Translations under genes and position numbers: made by a program
Notes under the pieces: generated by a model
The model's database searches: none
What the model saw: only the letters and a program-made list of their open reading frames with translations
What the model was told of the DNA's origin: nothing
From: Halobacillus halophilus DSM 2266
Lineage (GTDB): Bacteria > Bacillota > Bacilli > Bacillales > Halobacillaceae
Length of the DNA stretch: 64,000 nt
Assembly (NCBI RefSeq): GCF_000284515.1
Contig: NC_017668.1
Location: 1,302,001-1,366,000 of the forward strand
Direction of reading: 5' to 3'
Shown here: in pieces, positions 6,773 to 54,452 of the stretch
How the letters are laid out: each line of letters begins with the position of its first letter
Numbering within the stretch: the stretch's first letter is position 1

Positions 6773-7012
6773 AAAAAAAGATCATTCATCTCTTCCATAT
6801 GGAAGGGACGAATGATCCGCGGTGCCACCCTGATTACTTTTAAACGTAAAAGTCAACTTTAAGATCGTTAACGCCGATCGTGCGTCGATAGAAGCTCCTA
6901 AGGCCCATTTCCTCCCACTGATCCTGACTGTTCCCAGCATCCACAGTCTCTCTGAAAAGATTACAGTGTCGAGTACTATTCCTTACTCATAGCCTTTAAT
7001 TTTATATTGTAA
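6773..7012 (-). promoter_or_regulatory. T-box riboswitch leader of trpS
   Basis: On the minus strand the T-box GGGTGGCACCGCGG (6817-6830) is followed by a terminator hairpin (gatcattcgtc pairing across a TTCCATATGGAA tip, 6775-6817) and a T run. The alternative antiterminator would use the T-box sequence. The upstream 180 bases can hold Stem I and the specifier loop. Uncharged tRNA-Trp is expected to bind and allow read-through. I did not fix the UGG specifier position with certainty. Confidence 0.93.
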
Positions 7013-14042: not shown

Positions 14043-14102
14043 GGCCCTACACGACGTAGGGTCGATCGATGTTGCCACAGGACGTGGCGACCTTAGTCGA
14101 TC
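14043..14102. repeat. 60-bp structured module, copy 1
   Basis: Two hairpins are seen: ccctac/gtaggg with loop acgac, and an outer gatcga/tcgatc that encloses gccac/gtggc. The related copy at 31131-31190 differs at about ten positions, and two of the changes are compensated across the stems. Confidence 0.75.
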
Positions 14103-14485
14103 CTCCTTTTACCAGGAGCCTCCTCAGTCGTTAACACTCCTGTGGGGTCTCGCCTAGCTCCTTCTCCCGCGGGAATCTCGTTGTTTCCTCCGCCATCCCT
14201 ACGATATCTAGTGAACGGCCCCTTCTTTAGAAGTGCAGATGTTGGACTAGATCCTCTATGAATCCAGTGTTATCAGGCCTTTTCTAACAATAACTGGAGA
14301 AAACAGGAACTCATGGCATGATTTTTATATTACTATTCAAGTGATTTTACCAATGTTTCGAGTCTCTTATTTCAGCAAGGTCCGGAGGGGGACGATGAAG
14401 ACTCCTGTGGGATAAACATGATCGGTGAGACCCCGCAGAGCTTGCTGAACTGACCCCTTAAAATTGGACACATTCATTAAAATTA

Positions 14486-31064: not shown

Positions 31065-31653
31065 TATAAGACTCCGTTTCGAGATATTTTATGAGAGGAA
31101 AGTTCCTGCGGGGCACGATTCGCTTTCCGTGGCCCTGCACGACGCAGGGTCGTTCGACGTTGCCACAGGATGTGGCGGTCTTAGTCGAATATCCCTTGTG
31201 GTGAGCTTCCTCGGGCTTAACAGCCCTGTGGGATCTCACCGATCATGTTTATCCCACAGGAGTCTTCGCCGTTCCCTTCCGCCCCTTTGCGATCATGGAG
31301 CGCTCAAAATCTTGCACGTAAATGCCTTCATATGAGGAAGGAGAACCTATGTGATCAACACTAAGGACCGGGTCTTTACAGGAGATAAACGCCGCTGTAG
31401 AAGCATATAAGACGATTTAAAGTTCCCACTTTTTCTACTGGCAGGGTCCGTTCGCAGAATTATAGTGGGGCTGGTGGGGAAATGGCGAGACTCCCATGGG
31501 AGAAGGGACTAGGTGAGATCCCGCAGGGAGTGAAACGAGCGAGGAAGCTCACCGTTCCTCCATAGGAAAGCGAGCTATTTCCTCACCAGCCCTCTTCCGC
31601 ATAGAGTAACGGACCCAATTTATTACGAGACTGAGTCTTCAAGTAATGGGAGC
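31065..31653 (-). repeat. Composite intergenic repeat, copy 2
   Basis: The second copy of the element, reversed relative to copies 1 and 3 (module B at about 31088-31320, module A at about 31440-31640). Its ends are AAGACTCCGTTTCGAGATAT (31069-31088) and, inverted, CGAGACTGAGTCTTCAAGTA (31626-31645). The spacer between modules is AT-richer. The 60-bp structured module is inserted in module B at 31131-31190. No gene is seen in this stretch of nearly 800 bases. Confidence 0.8.
31131..31190. repeat. 60-bp structured module, copy 2
   Basis: Hairpin ccctgc/gcaggg with loop acgac, then gttcga/tcgaat enclosing gccac/gtggc. It has the same length as the copy at 14043-14102, with about ten substitutions, two of them compensated pairs. 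Confidence 0.75.
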
Positions 31654-49130: not shown

Positions 49131-49838
49131 TTATTCACCAAAAATGGTTAATAAAGCGCGTTTGAAATCCTTCTGCCACGTGCCCCACGTATGATCACCT
49201 TCAAGCTCGTGGAACGTATAGCTGCACGGACGTCCGGTCAAGTAGTTATTTAAGTCACGGTTCGGCTGAAGGAAGTTCTTCCTGGCACCTTCCGTTGTCT
49301 CCACGTCATACTCCTGATCACCGATCGTGTGGTAAATCGTTAACGAAGACATATCTTTTGAGGACTTAATCACTTCAAACACATGTTCATCCACATAAGG
49401 GCTCTGCATAATCACATTCCCAAAAACATTCGGAAACTTCACCGCTGTCATGAACGAAACCGTTCCAGCAAGCGAATCCCCGACAAGCGTTCGACCACTG
49501 CCCATATGATAACCCGGCAGCTCTTCATCAAGGAACGGAACCACTTCGCGGATGAGGAAATTCACATATTCCGCCTGCTTCTTTCCGTCCGGATGATATT
49601 TATCCTGTCGATCGTACTTGTCCCTATAATGAATACCAATAAAAATGGTATTCTCAATCTTTCCTTCACCATGCAGCTCATCACTTAGTGTGGCCGCACG
49701 TCCCAGCTGGAAATAATCGTTACCATCTTGCATAATACAGAAATGGTACTTATACAAGGGGGAGAAATTTTCTGGGGTGTACACTTTTAGTGTCATTTCT
49801 TCATCTAGATAGCTGCTATTAATTGTATATTCAGTCAT
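49131..49838 (-). CDS. yjcH: Esterase YjcH, esterase D-like
   Basis: 235 residues of the putative esterase family. The nucleophile Ser122 is in VGDSLAGTVS and the histidine in LEGDHTWGTW. CIMQDGNDYF gives the oxyanion region. The start at 49838 follows AAAAGGATC; the upstream frame is not supported. It is the first gene of the minus-strand run, with no signal peptide. Confidence 0.88.
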   Translation of the reverse strand: MTEYTINSSYLDEEMTLKVYTPENFSPLYKYHFCIMQDGNDYFQLGRAATLSDELHGEGKIENTIFIGIHYRDKYDRQDKYHPDGKKQAEYVNFLIREVVPFLDEELPGYHMGSGRTLVGDSLAGTVSFMTAVKFPNVFGNVIMQSPYVDEHVFEVIKSSKDMSSLTIYHTIGDQEYDVETTEGARKNFLQPNRDLNNYLTGRPCSYTFHELEGDHTWGTWQKDFKRALLTIFGE

Positions 49839-50038
49839 GGATCCTTTTCTACCCAAGCCGATTACCTCCTTACATGCAAATAAGCTCCTATCAGAATTCC
49901 CGCTGCCTTCTGTACATAAACGTACCATAACTATTTTATCATATAATTATGTAAAAAGTAGAGAAGAGGAAGAAAGCGCTTGATAAATAGGATATTTTGA
50001 GGATATTTACATGAGCTTCACAAAAAATTAAAATTCTG

Positions 50039-50098: not shown

Positions 50099-50171
50099 GA
50101 TTCCGTAGCTCAGCTGGGAGAGCGCCACCTTGACAGGGTGGAAGTCGTTGGTTCGAGCCCAATCGGAATCA
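50099..50171 (+). tRNA. tRNA-Val (anticodon GAC)
   Basis: A full cloverleaf: acceptor gattccg/cggaatc with discriminator A (50171), D arm gctc/gagc, anticodon stem ccacc/ggtgg with loop TTGACAG, and T arm ttgg/ccaa with loop TTCGAGC. The 3' CCA is not encoded (the next bases are TCC), unlike most tRNA genes of bacilli. The gene stands alone. Its 3' end is repeated in decayed form at 54318-54452. Confidence 0.96.
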
Positions 50172-50188
50172 TCCATACAAAGTGCGAA

Positions 50189-50230
50189 GGCGTTATGATC
50201 CGTATCCAGAGCGGGTTGTAGCGTCTTTTT
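50189..50230 (+). terminator. Terminator of tRNA-Val
   Basis: A 14-bp stem with several G-T pairs (ggcgttatgatccg with cgggttgtagcgtc) and a T run. A diverged copy of this hairpin region lies in the repeat near 54370. Confidence 0.8.
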
Positions 50231-50300
50231 CTGTTTTGATAACTTTTTTTGCGAATCCTGAAGACTTATCGCAGGGTTACGCTCTTAGTTTTCATTCAGC

Positions 50301-50346: not shown

Positions 50347-50658
50347 GTTTAGATGAATTATTTTATATGTTCATTTCGATCAAATCGGCAAAGGAACCCG
50401 TAACGCGGAAGGGGGTGGAATATACGTTACATTTAGAGAAATTCACACGGAAAAAAAGTGTACTCGCTGACTTGATCGAACCAACGACCTATGATGATAT
50501 TTGACTAATATACCTAACGTAACAATGTAAGATTAATAAGGAAGAGTTGAAAAAAAAGAAATAAAGTAGTTATTGAAGGAATATGGAAAGATTTATCGAA
50601 TTATTTTGTTATTAAGTCATTAATTCTTTTGAGATAAGGAGGTCAGTAGGCGGTCATA

Positions 50659-50805
50659 ATGTCAACGTTTCGTAGATCATGGATTTCAGGTTTTAATAAA
50701 ATTATGGATGACAGAACAGTCGAGTAAAGGAAGGTTAATCTCATTCTTAACGTGTACAAGAATGGAAGTTAAGCAACCGTTTACCTTTAGACTGTTCTTT
50801 TTTTA
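50659..50805 (+). promoter_or_regulatory. Leader with mini-frame and branched terminator
   Basis: A 22-codon frame (50659-50727, MSTFRRSWISGFNKIMDDRT...) runs into a branched structure. The outer stem is agaacagtc/gactgttct plus taaagg/cctttac, with inner ggtt/aacc and cattctt/aagaatg, followed by T8 (to 50805). The metalloprotease gene begins 26 bases later. It looks like an attenuator, but the mini-frame may be chance; its AAGGAGG is 16 bases away. Confidence 0.45.
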
Positions 50806-50831
50806 TCTTTACCAAGCTAAGCCTTTTCTTA

Positions 50832-52052
50832 ATGTCCATTGCTTTAGATCAGGTTCATAAGGAGGCATGGTGGGGTTCCATGGATAAAATAAATTCGCAA
50901 TTTTTAAGCATGGGAGATCAGGATCGTAAAGTTATTTACCTGAAGAAATACCTGAAAAAGTTCGGTTACTATCATTCTTGTCCTTGTCTTGAAGAAGCAT
51001 TCTGCAAACATCTCGATAAATCGGTGAAGGATTATCAGTTGTATTTTGGATTGTCTATCACCGGAAACTTAGATGAACCTACTATTACTCAGATGCAAAA
51101 GCCGAGGTGTGGACTGCCTGATTTGTTACCTGGGGAAGATGTTCGCGAGAAAGTAAACGATTATAGCCTAAGTGGTGGTAGATGGGAAAATACGAACATC
51201 AGGTATTTTTTTCAGAATGGAACGAGCGATATTTCTGGGACAACAGAATGGGACATTATGCGGCAAGCAATGGATCGTTGGGCGGATGTTACGCCTTTAA
51301 CATTTACACAAGTGACGACGGAAGCGGATGCTGATATTCGATTTTTATGGGCGACAGGAAGTCATGGAGATGACGATCCCTTTGATGGTTTTGGAAATGT
51401 ACTGGCTCACGCTTTCTATCCACCCCCTGTAAACTCACGTCCTACTGCTGGTGATGTTCACTTTGATAACGATGAAAAATGGGATACAGAGGACGGTGGA
51501 TTTTGGTGGTGGAGGCGACGTGATCTTCTTACTGTGGCGATACATGAAGTCGGCCACGCTCTTGGTCTGGCTCATTCCACTATAGGTAACGCGATTATGT
51601 GGCCTACTTATGAAGGGGAAAGGAGGACTTTACATTCAGATGACATTGAGGGGATACAGGCGCTTTATGGTTCTCCAGTCAGGCCCGCCGGTTCAAGGTT
51701 CGCAGAAGCAAGCATGTGGGCATTAAAGAACACAGGAGGATACGGAACCATTTCAATTGATTTAGGAAGCCCTCGGCGATTTGTCGCATGGGGAACCATC
51801 ACCATGTTGGATTCCCTATCCGATTTAGATAGAGATAACGCTGTCGTTGCAGAGGTGTTTCAAGTTGATGGGATAGAAACATGGAAAGCTGTATCTGGCG
51901 GTGATCACTGGGGTGCTGCCGGTAATTCCTCTAATGTACACCAGGGAGCGTATGTTGGGTTTGGACAAACCATTACTTTTCGGATTCGTTCCATGCACCC
52001 TAATGATATGGAAGCTTATGGTGTGGGGTCAGTTATGGTACTTGATGAATGA
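50832..52052 (+). CDS. Matrixin-type metalloprotease with cysteine switch
   Basis: 406 residues from the first ATG. In order: a peptidoglycan-binding-like prodomain (about 30-88), PRCGLPD (91-97, Cys93), which is the cysteine-switch motif of animal and plant matrix metalloproteases, and a catalytic domain (112-281). That domain has structural sites HGDDDPFDG and GDVHFDNDEKW, the zinc motif HEVGHALGLAH (238-248) and the Met-turn NAIMWP (Met256). A C-terminal domain (about 293-404) reappears as a separate protein at 52370. No signal peptide is visible. The first ATG has no ribosome site; the ATG at 50880, 14 bases after AAGGAGG, is an alternative. First of three genes. Confidence 0.85.
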   Translation: MSIALDQVHKEAWWGSMDKINSQFLSMGDQDRKVIYLKKYLKKFGYYHSCPCLEEAFCKHLDKSVKDYQLYFGLSITGNLDEPTITQMQKPRCGLPDLLPGEDVREKVNDYSLSGGRWENTNIRYFFQNGTSDISGTTEWDIMRQAMDRWADVTPLTFTQVTTEADADIRFLWATGSHGDDDPFDGFGNVLAHAFYPPPVNSRPTAGDVHFDNDEKWDTEDGGFWWWRRRDLLTVAIHEVGHALGLAHSTIGNAIMWPTYEGERRTLHSDDIEGIQALYGSPVRPAGSRFAEASMWALKNTGGYGTISIDLGSPRRFVAWGTITMLDSLSDLDRDNAVVAEVFQVDGIETWKAVSGGDHWGAAGNSSNVHQGAYVGFGQTITFRIRSMHPNDMEAYGVGSVMVLDE

Positions 52053-52079
52053 TAGACAAACCCAGAAAGGAAAATGCCG

Positions 52080-52352
52080 ATGTTAGTTTATATGATCTAT
52101 GATAAAAGCAATGGAGAAATCGTACACATTCATCGTAATGTAGATATTAATGGAAGAAGCTACACGTGTACAGAAGAAGAAATTCACCGCATGATACCTC
52201 CTCATATTGATCAAAAATCTGTCGGCTTTATTTCAGCTGAACTTGAACAACCTCCTTCAGGAAGGCAAGTGAAAATGAGTGTAGATGTTACGAAAAATAC
52301 GCTTATTCAAACATTCATCGATAAAGATGCACCTATTGAAAAGAATGAATAA
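52080..52352 (+). CDS. Hypothetical protein in the metalloprotease operon
   Basis: 90 residues starting MLVYMIYDKSNGEIVHIHRN, mixed beta and alpha, with THR/SYTCTEEE in the middle. No signal or membrane segment. The start at 52080 is eight bases after AAAGGA; an ATG two codons earlier is too close. It lies between the protease and the stand-alone copy of its C-terminal domain. The family is unknown. Co-expression suggests that it acts with them. Confidence 0.65.
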   Translation: MLVYMIYDKSNGEIVHIHRNVDINGRSYTCTEEEIHRMIPPHIDQKSVGFISAELEQPPSGRQVKMSVDVTKNTLIQTFIDKDAPIEKNE

Positions 52353-52369
52353 AAGTCAGGAGGTTGAAT

Positions 52370-52723
52370 ATGGATGCATATGAAATTAGTATGTGGGGAT
52401 TAAAAAATCATGGCGGCAGCAACACCGTGACGATTGATCTCGGACGGAACAGAAGCTTTCTTGCCTGGGCATCCGTAACCATGATTGATTCACTTAATGA
52501 TTTTGATGCGGACAATGCTGTTGTTGCAGAGGTGTTTCAGGTTGATGGAGTCGAAACGTGGAAGGCAGTATATGGAGGGGAACACTGGGGTTCTGCCGGA
52601 GATTCTTCCAATGTTCACCAAGGAGCTTACGTAGGATACGGCCGAAGAATCACCTTTCGGATCAGGTCGGTTCATTCAAGTGATTTAGATTCATATGGTA
52701 TGGGTGTAGTAGTAGCACAATAA
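52370..52723 (+). CDS. Stand-alone copy of the metalloprotease C-terminal domain
   Basis: 117 residues that match residues 293-404 of the metalloprotease along their whole length. Shared stretches include NAVVAEVFQVDG, ETWKAV, GGxHWGxAGxSSNVHQGAYVG and ITFRIRS. The domain is Trp- and aromatic-rich and looks all-beta, so carbohydrate or surface binding is possible, but I know no named family for it. AGGAGG lies six bases before the ATG. No signal peptide is present. It is the last gene before a strong terminator. Confidence 0.75.
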   Translation: MDAYEISMWGLKNHGGSNTVTIDLGRNRSFLAWASVTMIDSLNDFDADNAVVAEVFQVDGVETWKAVYGGEHWGSAGDSSNVHQGAYVGYGRRITFRIRSVHSSDLDSYGMGVVVAQ

Positions 52724-53143: not shown

Positions 53144-54166
53144 GTGGAAACATTCTTAATGATCCTAATGTTAACGGCTTTAGCAGGTATGGTAGTCTTT
53201 ATTGTTTTAACTTTCGTAAAAGGTAAGGATAACAGACGCAGGAATTTGGCTAAGTCAGGTGGTTGCTTATACTTATTTCTAGCCCTGGCAATGATTTTAG
53301 GATCTGAGGATGGAGCTTTCCAAACCTTCGTAGGAATTTTGATGTTAACAGCTTTTGCAGGTACGGTAGTCTTTGCTGTCCTAGCTTTCGTAAAAGGTAA
53401 AGGTAACAGGCTCAGGAACTTTGCAAAACCAGGTGGCTGCCTGTTAGCACTTCTCGTTATAGTCGTTATTGGAGCACCAGTTGAAGAAACGCCTATTGCT
53501 CAAGAAGTTACAACGGAAGCTTCCGCAGAGGCTGAAGAGAAAGTTGAGCAGGAAGAGGAAGCAAAGAAAGTAGAGGAACAAGCAAAAAAAGAGCAAGAAG
53601 CTGAGGAGCAGGCGAAAAAACAAGAAGAAGAACGAATAGCAAAAGAAGAGGAAGATCGTAAAGCTAAAGAAGAACAAGAAGCAAAAGAAGCTGAGGAACA
53701 AGCGAAGAAAGAAGAAGAGGAACGAATAGCAAAAGAAGAGGAAGAACGTAAAGCTAAAGAAGAACAAGAAGCAAAAGAGACTGAGGAGCAGGCGAAAAAA
53801 GAAGAAGAGGAACGAATAGCAAAAGAAGAAGCAGATCGAAAAGCTAGGGAAGAACAAGAAGCTGAAGAAGCCAGTGTAACGGTTTCTCAGGAACAGGCGG
53901 TTAGAATGGCTAAGGACTATCTGGACTACACGGCATTCTCTAAATCAGGATTAATCGATCAATTAAAGTTTGAGGGGTTTAGCACAAAAGATGCAACTTA
54001 TGCTGTAGAAAACATCACGGTCGACTGGCAGGAGCAGGCGGTTATTATGGCTCAAGATTATCTTGATTACACTTCTTTTTCACGCCAAGGACTAATTGAG
54101 CAATTAACTTTTGAAGGATTCAGCACAAAACATGCGACCTACGCTGCAGGCCAGGTTGGTTTGTGA
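53144..54166 (+). CDS. Membrane coiled-coil protein with two Ltp-type repeats
   Basis: 340 residues with a GTG start after GAGGGGAG. Two tandem copies of a membrane unit (about 3-52 and 60-107, each with LMLTAxAGxVVFxVLxFVKGK and GGCL) lead to a Lys/Glu/Ala-rich coiled coil (about 125-245) with three 30-residue repeats. Two C-terminal repeats of about 45 residues follow (AKDYLDYTAFSKSGLIDQL, FEGFSTKDATYA and a close copy). The last two match the Ltp family (host-cell-surface lipoprotein), known from a streptococcal phage superinfection-exclusion lipoprotein. The function here is unknown. Confidence 0.8.
   Translation: METFLMILMLTALAGMVVFIVLTFVKGKDNRRRNLAKSGGCLYLFLALAMILGSEDGAFQTFVGILMLTAFAGTVVFAVLAFVKGKGNRLRNFAKPGGCLLALLVIVVIGAPVEETPIAQEVTTEASAEAEEKVEQEEEAKKVEEQAKKEQEAEEQAKKQEEERIAKEEEDRKAKEEQEAKEAEEQAKKEEEERIAKEEEERKAKEEQEAKETEEQAKKEEEERIAKEEADRKAREEQEAEEASVTVSQEQAVRMAKDYLDYTAFSKSGLIDQLKFEGFSTKDATYAVENITVDWQEQAVIMAQDYLDYTSFSRQGLIEQLTFEGFSTKHATYAAGQVGL
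53603..53872 (+). repeat. Three 90-bp tandem repeats within a coding region
   Basis: Three in-frame units of 30 codons, each beginning EEQAKK and ending near KEEQEAKE. They extend the coiled coil and are likely to vary in number between strains. Confidence 0.85.
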
Positions 54167-54317: not shown

Positions 54318-54452
54318 AATTGTTGTCCGAACCCAATTGTTATCATCTATATAAAGTGCGAAGGATTATGCCCCGTATCCAAAGTCGGTGGTAGCTTCTT
54401 TTTCTTTACTGAACAATCTTTACAAATTTCCTGAGGATTTCTCGCAGGTTTA
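54318..54452 (+). repeat. Decayed direct repeat of the tRNA-Val 3' end and its terminator
   Basis: About 135 bases align with 50142-50277 at roughly 70-75 percent by eye. The best blocks are ccgaacccaattgttatcatct (tRNA T arm and acceptor) followed by ataaagtgcgaagg, ccgtatcca, gtagc and ttctttttct. The tRNA part can no longer fold. It is either an old attachment-site copy or a remnant of a duplicated tRNA. Confidence 0.65.

Follow-up and report, generated by a model that had tools for sequence, protein, structure and literature searches.

A predicted leaderless matrix metalloprotease with an animal-type cysteine switch in a tRNA-Val hotspot of Halobacillus halophilus

The window analyzed here is a stretch of 64,000 nucleotides of Halobacillus halophilus DSM 2266 (NC_017668.1, 1,302,001 to 1,366,000), and all coordinates are positions within it. 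Three genes on the forward strand are arranged as an operon. The first (50880..52052, 390 aa) codes for a putative pro-matrix metalloprotease (pro-MMP) without a leader, an assignment based on Pfam, a PDB sequence match, in-frame stops in relatives and dN/dS. It is followed after 21 bases by ORF2 (52074-52352, 92 aa) and, 17 bases further on, by ORF3 (52370-52723, 117 aa). Within the protease, a match to PG_binding_1 (PF01471, E 1.3e-7; 50928-51095) precedes the cysteine switch PRCGLPD (51102-51122), the M10 catalytic domain (51180-51671; PF00413, E 6.2e-47, 159.9 bits against a cut-off of 24) and a C-terminal domain of ca. 113 residues (51705-52043). The HExxHxxGxxH zinc motif, here HEVGHALGLAH (51543-51575), and the methionine of the Met-turn (51597-51599) were read directly, as was the switch, and both fall inside the PF00413 domain, which corresponds to family M10A. 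The metal loop reads HGDDDPFDGFGNVLAHAF...GDVHFDNDEKW. Its segments HGD, FDG, AHAF and VHFDNDE, which we take to be the structural zinc and calcium loop ligands, align with their counterparts in human pro-MMP-1 (1su3), the best PDB sequence match (E 6.3e-45; query 14-275 against 8-256), and a four-sequence bacterial profile matched the same protein at E 1e-63. Switch, zinc motif, Met-turn and metal loops are all intact, so that the zymogen motif and the MMP-type calcium and zinc loops reported by the first-pass annotation were confirmed. The same annotation had described an N-terminal peptidoglycan-binding-like domain. The Pfam match is there, but the alignment with pro-MMP-1 covers the prodomain too, and the stretch is therefore the usual MMP prodomain; an extra peptidoglycan-binding domain was ruled out. 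Judged by its sequence, the protein is an M10A matrix metalloprotease with a canonical prodomain and a PRCGLPD cysteine switch, and it is the sole PF00413 match of its genome.

The likeness to animal pro-MMPs, which extends over residues 14-275, comprises the prodomain, the PRCGxPD switch, the HExxHxxGxxH motif and the metal loops. Animal pro-MMPs also carry a signal peptide and hemopexin repeats, whereas the window protease has neither and ends instead in a short predicted jelly-roll. A hemopexin C-terminal domain is found in most, not all, animal and plant pro-MMPs; here no Pfam match to it appeared at E up to 1. Karilysin of Tannerella forsythia (2xs4), a bacterial M10A enzyme, resembles the catalytic domain (E 5.2e-42, query 95-266). 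This secreted enzyme has neither the animal-type prodomain nor the cysteine switch, both of which are present in the window protease. Serralysins (M10B) are leaderless and exported through a type I system; the whole-protein serralysin model NF035945 of NCBIfam gave the window protease 32.5 bits against a cut-off of 500. Another point of comparison is mirolysin, described in PMC8259862 and PMC6949598 as a secreted bacterial metalloprotease of the pappalysin family with a short N-terminal pro-segment and cysteine-switch latency, a latency that in the window protease is predicted from the sequence.

The gene had at first been taken to begin at ATG 50832, 16 codons 5' of the start adopted here. 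In both close relatives (L015 and L016) an in-frame TGA is the third codon 5' of ATG 50880, and in the window AGGAGG is located at 50860-50865, so the start was moved to ATG 50880. Above 50832 the frame of the window continues for 27 further codons, none of them ATG, GTG or TTG. The stops in both relatives exclude a missed signal peptide, and an upstream start was rejected on the same grounds, together with the lack of any start codon further 5' in the window's own frame. The N-terminus of the protease, MDKINSQFLSMGDQDRKVIYLKKYLKKFGYY, showed no signal peptide on inspection and no hydrophobic core in a home-made test (see below), and those of ORF2 (MPMLVYMIYDKSNGEI) and ORF3 (MDAYEISMWGLKNHGG) are not leader-like by eye. 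The first-pass annotation was thus right that none of the three proteins has a signal peptide. One could still argue that this is a matrixin of the ordinary secreted kind, with a leader that was overlooked or that this strain lost recently, given the open frame above 50832 and the leaders of switch-less Bacillota matrixins. However, besides the stops, which refute it, unrelated switch-bearing relatives are leaderless as well, and we regard this explanation as highly improbable.

Upstream of the protease there is a putative RNA leader (50526..50870, forward strand) with a terminator-like hairpin, common to the three genomes that bear the operon. The arms of the hairpin (50714-50721 and 50790-50797) are followed by seven T, ca. 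75 bases 5' of the start codon, and the stretch 50714-50804 folds with a z of -3.0. Among 22 genomes of the genus, the segment 50530-50830 was found in three, exclusively those with the operon; it matches the window with 96% and 91% identity in the two relatives and is conserved to about the same degree as the coding part. Any promoter located 5' of the hairpin must read through it, and transcriptional attenuation at this point is therefore possible, as far as can be judged from the sequence; covariation is uninformative because the pairs hardly vary. No Rfam family, riboswitches included, reaches its gathering score in the leader, and nothing convincing was seen by eye as a sporulation promoter. 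A 22-codon ORF before the hairpin was discarded as a leader peptide: L015 has AAG in place of its ATG, and L016 differs at most of its residues (by eye).

ORF3 is 67% identical to the C-terminal domain of the protease and, by this criterion, is a stand-alone copy of it. Its model is a predicted jelly-roll (pLDDT 71) that also matches intracellular proteins, without family assignment; for the jelly-roll predicted in the C-terminal domain, the Z scores of accessory domains of secreted proteases tie with those of many other jelly-rolls. ORF2 has no match in Pfam or NCBIfam, is 95% and 89% identical in the two relatives, and is modeled as five strands and one helix (pLDDT 82). A search of 299 genomes of the order, a sample that leaves out the genomes G001 and G019, matched ORF3 in its own genome alone. 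Against plasmid records, ORF3 gave one weak place (E 0.3) and ORF2 no match at E 1. Selection was estimated as dN/dS (Nei-Gojobori) in three pairwise comparisons. The values for the whole protease were 0.077, 0.082 and 0.080, with 0.085-0.107 for the prodomain, 0.038-0.079 for the catalytic domain and 0.070-0.126 for the C-terminal domain. Those of ORF3 were lower (0.017-0.034), and ORF2 is looser than both (0.29-0.40, from few changes). With dN/dS close to 0.08, the protease is not a chance ORF. These sequence comparisons indicate that all three genes are maintained, the protease under purifying selection. A decaying or non-functional acquired gene would fit the accessory position of the operon, its rarity in the genus and the lack of any integrase gene in the stretch from the tRNA to the far repeat (see below). 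It is, however, largely refuted by the purifying selection on the protease and on ORF3 (0.02-0.03), and by the intact switch, catalytic and metal-loop residues, which leave it with hardly any credibility.

The operon is positioned 3' of a tRNA-Val (GAC) gene (50099..50171, forward strand; ARAGORN, Rfam RF00005 62.3 bits), the putative anchor of an integration hotspot. Beyond the operon, a degenerate att-like repeat of the 3' end and flank of this tRNA (54325..54421, forward strand) contains the direct repeats D7 (83%) and D5 (75%) of 50151-50248. No integrase gene is present in the window between the tRNA and this far repeat. The situation is richer in the relative G001, in which the locus contains, starting from the tRNA, an integrase, replication-type genes (by eye; the 505-aa one without a Pfam match), a tRNA-flank repeat, a two-piece integrase, a TIR protein, an OLD-family ATPase, a repeat, the protease operon and another repeat. 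Several tRNA-flank repeats thus bound separate cassettes in this hotspot (L091 1-19001), namely an island with an integrase, the cassette of TIR protein and OLD-family ATPase, and the protease operon. A mismatch of the flanks had raised the suspicion that the cassette had moved elsewhere in G001, which was rejected, the locus being the same tRNA-Val with a longer insert. Of the 19 genomes of the genus without the operon, six were examined, and in all six the tRNA-Val (GAC) adjoins the same conserved gene (49131-49928 in the window). These contents, together with the same tRNA neighbor in the operon-less genomes, make the operon an accessory cassette in an integration hotspot. The gene directly 3' of the operon (53144-54166) is internally repetitive; two hydrophobic segments at its N-terminus and a long charged EE/K repeat precede two repeats of the Lipoprotein_Ltp type.

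By sequence similarity, the hotspot can also hold defense-type genes, since in G001 the TIR protein matches the SpbK model (2.5e-22) and its neighbor the OLD-family ATPase (9.7e-72). This suggests an alternative in which the zymogen stays inside the cell as an immune protease, is unlocked by phage infection and cuts phage or host proteins. The missing leader, the patchy distribution (3 of 22 genomes of the genus) and the position of the homologue in G109, located 3' of a prophage tape-measure gene and ca. 4 kb from an FRG-domain gene, are in its favor. Nevertheless, the TIR/OLD cassette is present in only one of the three operon-bearing genomes, none of the three proteins matched PADLOC at E 0.01 (a search to which a new system would stay invisible), the surface-binding-type repeats of relatives suit a target outside better, and MMPs need calcium. 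On balance, an immune role appears unlikely, although it deserves to be kept in mind.

Homologues are scattered. The two loci from named genomes, H. alkaliphilus FP5 and H. halophilus AcN7-4, have protein identities of 95% and 94%, and the operon occurs in 3 of the 22 genomes of the genus. A threshold of E 0.001 gave seven matches in 121 related genomes, namely the three loci of Halobacillus, G109, whose homologue is 36% identical and bears the switch, and three with the PG-binding stretch only. Eleven of 398 genomes of the class matched, the other ten besides its own being eight switch-less matrixins and two with the PG-binding stretch only. At the phylum level (E 1e-12), matches were limited to 3 of 398 genomes, its own plus G772 and G837, the latter two through the catalytic domain alone. 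Three of 344 genomes in the family of G123, presumably Paenibacillaceae, matched at E 1e-15; G1163 has PRCGFPD, G1304 a divergent RYCGVPE, and G1155 is switch-less. Plasmids were represented by 17 of 72,556 records, four of which were inspected: those of Paenibacillus sonchi, P. amylolyticus and Streptomyces globosus have the switch and that of Euzebya does not; with L043 as the query, 18 plasmid records were found. None of 50,697 phage records matched the window protease, and the same was true for L049. Five scans of viral contigs gave 12 distinct contigs or loci, two of them switch-like (L043, PRCGVRD, and L049, PRCGCDD). Three ChW stretches are present in the leaderless L043, and propeller-type repeats, FG-GAP-like according to Pfam, in L030. 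The plasmid proteins of P. sonchi, P. amylolyticus and S. globosus, named "matrixin family metalloprotease," are like the window protease in being leaderless, with a PG_binding_1-type prodomain, switch and M10 domain, but differ in their C-terminal modules (none in S. globosus) and in having no ORF2 or ORF3 among their listed neighbors. Switch-bearing L033 (9985-10779) and L030 (3827-5623) form a sub-group in which another sequence (DPDHSMV) takes the place of the first structural-zinc His-x-Asp and additional cysteines are found near the metal loop, a hint of altered metal binding. In G109, the leaderless switch-bearing matrixin and the tape-measure gene 5' of it (L033 9985-15897) are directly adjacent on the same strand, and on the S. 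globosus plasmid (L029 2602-4933) a serpin gene lies directly 5' of the leaderless switch-bearing matrixin, also on the same strand. A viral contig (L052 2194-5235) has a matrixin motif within an apparent tape-measure protein (by eye).

The presence of leaders in these proteins was scored with a home-made heuristic script that searches the vicinity of candidate starts for a hydrophobic core of 10 residues without charges (34 loci in, 31 scored; L035, L036 and L046 gave no row). No leader was found in any of the 11 switch-bearing bacterial MMPs (core score at most 1.8), whereas all 10 switch-less Bacillota matrixins have one (nine score at least 2.29, and in L017 a membrane helix is seen by eye), in a small sample for which the threshold and the widened motif [RY]CG.[PRD][DE] were set after the sequences had been seen. 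The strict form PRCG[VLF]PD is present in seven of the 11, which amount to nine lineages, since three are the near-identical Halobacillus proteins. The Euzebya protein (L031) and the viral L045, L050, L051, L053 and L054 score at least 2.2. A missing leader does not go with the switch alone, because the switch-less viral L044, L047 and L048 have no hydrophobic core and are leaderless too. Still, on this sequence test, the missing leader is no quirk of the window gene but is common to the other switch-bearing bacterial MMPs found. A tree was built from the catalytic domains of bacterial and viral sequences alone; 33 were entered and 31 retained, the motif filter having removed L036 and L053. 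The switch-bearing sequences are clustered on it, with four changes required, a number as low as that of one in 500 label shuffles, but 0% of 200 bootstrap trees unite them in a single clade. At weak support values (62/93), the midpoint sets the ten secreted Bacillota matrixins (L018, L019, L021 and L023 among them) plus L046 opposite all 11 switch-bearing sequences, with some switch-less viral and Euzebya sequences among the latter. As deep branches are weak and several are long, the tree does not show a single origin of the switch-bearing MMPs. A grouping of the window protease with ordinary secreted bacterial matrixins, which would have told against the first-pass annotation, was not seen in this weak tree; those of Bacillota share the M10 domain with HExxHxxGxxH and differ in their signal peptide or membrane helix, their lack of a switch motif and their place in the tree.

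A protein without a Sec leader could also be secreted by intact cells through a non-classical route, perhaps via ORF2 or ORF3, and the co-directional arrangement of both genes, with gaps of 21 and 17 bases, kept in all three operon-bearing genomes, would agree with this. On the other hand, the leaderless proteins of G109, S. globosus and P. sonchi have neither gene among their listed neighbors (by eye), and the marker of extracellular contractile injection systems, PF14065, had no match in the H. halophilus genome, a blank shared by the control search, which likewise matched nowhere. Such an export strikes us as quite unlikely. Since the protease lacks a leader and relatives carry surface-type modules, the best single reading would be that of a latent pro-MMP stored in the cytoplasm and acting after lysis, which we propose tentatively, stopping somewhat short of calling it probable. 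The protease would be synthesized in the cytoplasm and remain there as a latent zymogen, with Cys77 of the prodomain capping the catalytic zinc. The cysteine switch requires a free thiol and MMPs require calcium, and for these reasons a cytosol that is reducing and poor in calcium would hold the enzyme in its locked state. Cell lysis, whether by phage, grazer, autolysis or mother-cell lysis, would expose it to calcium, oxidants and other proteases, the prodomain would then be lost and the enzyme would become active outside; release into salt water would favor the unlocking. The jelly-roll domain and its separate copy, ORF3, probably bind a surface or substrate, and the tRNA-Val cassette is probably carried for conflict with, or feeding on, other organisms. 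The analysis turned up no sign of an action on spores, which the first-pass annotation had listed with dying cells and competitors as conceivable targets.

The complete pro-MMP plan with its intact switch, a leader that is impossible in the relatives, the contrast in leaders between switch-bearing and switch-less proteins, the predicted jelly-roll, purifying selection and the accessory hotspot are all consistent with storage and release by lysis, and the ChW stretches of L043 and propeller-type repeats of L030 fit an action at surfaces. Against it, the TIR and OLD neighbors in G001 are no less compatible with a role inside the cell, the jelly-roll of ORF3 matches intracellular proteins, and switch-less viral proteins are leaderless too. 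It is also possible, albeit doubtful, that switch-bearing bacterial MMPs are a distinct, unrecognized class of leaderless stored zymogens, often with surface-binding modules, located on plasmids, prophage regions and tRNA hotspots, and serving as weapons released by lysis or triggered by infection. In bacteria the switch would then allow a protease to be stored within the cell without harm, and the secreted animal form would be only one of its two uses.

Matrix metalloproteases are known as secreted enzymes, and we found no account of leaderless switch-bearing bacterial MMPs in the open-access literature searched. A full animal-type lock without an export signal in bacteria would mean, if true, that the lock can serve intracellular storage. 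Marine Halobacillus would offer a test system for the role of bacterial MMPs, which, according to PMC12587646, are widespread, with no study having tested their action on animal matrix proteins. The first-pass annotation had taken bacterial MMP-like genes to come from eukaryotes, which is contested: in PMC12587646, the metazoan and bacterial roots are not separable and a bacterial origin is favored. A term search of the text of PMC12587646 gave no mention of "signal peptide" or "cysteine switch," and the lock described here is relevant to the order in which the bacterial and animal forms arose, a question left open in that paper. Elsewhere in the window there are two copies of the Bacillaceae-1 RNA (RF01690) on the reverse strand, at 14046-14112 and 31134-31200, and a T-box leader at 6801-6999.
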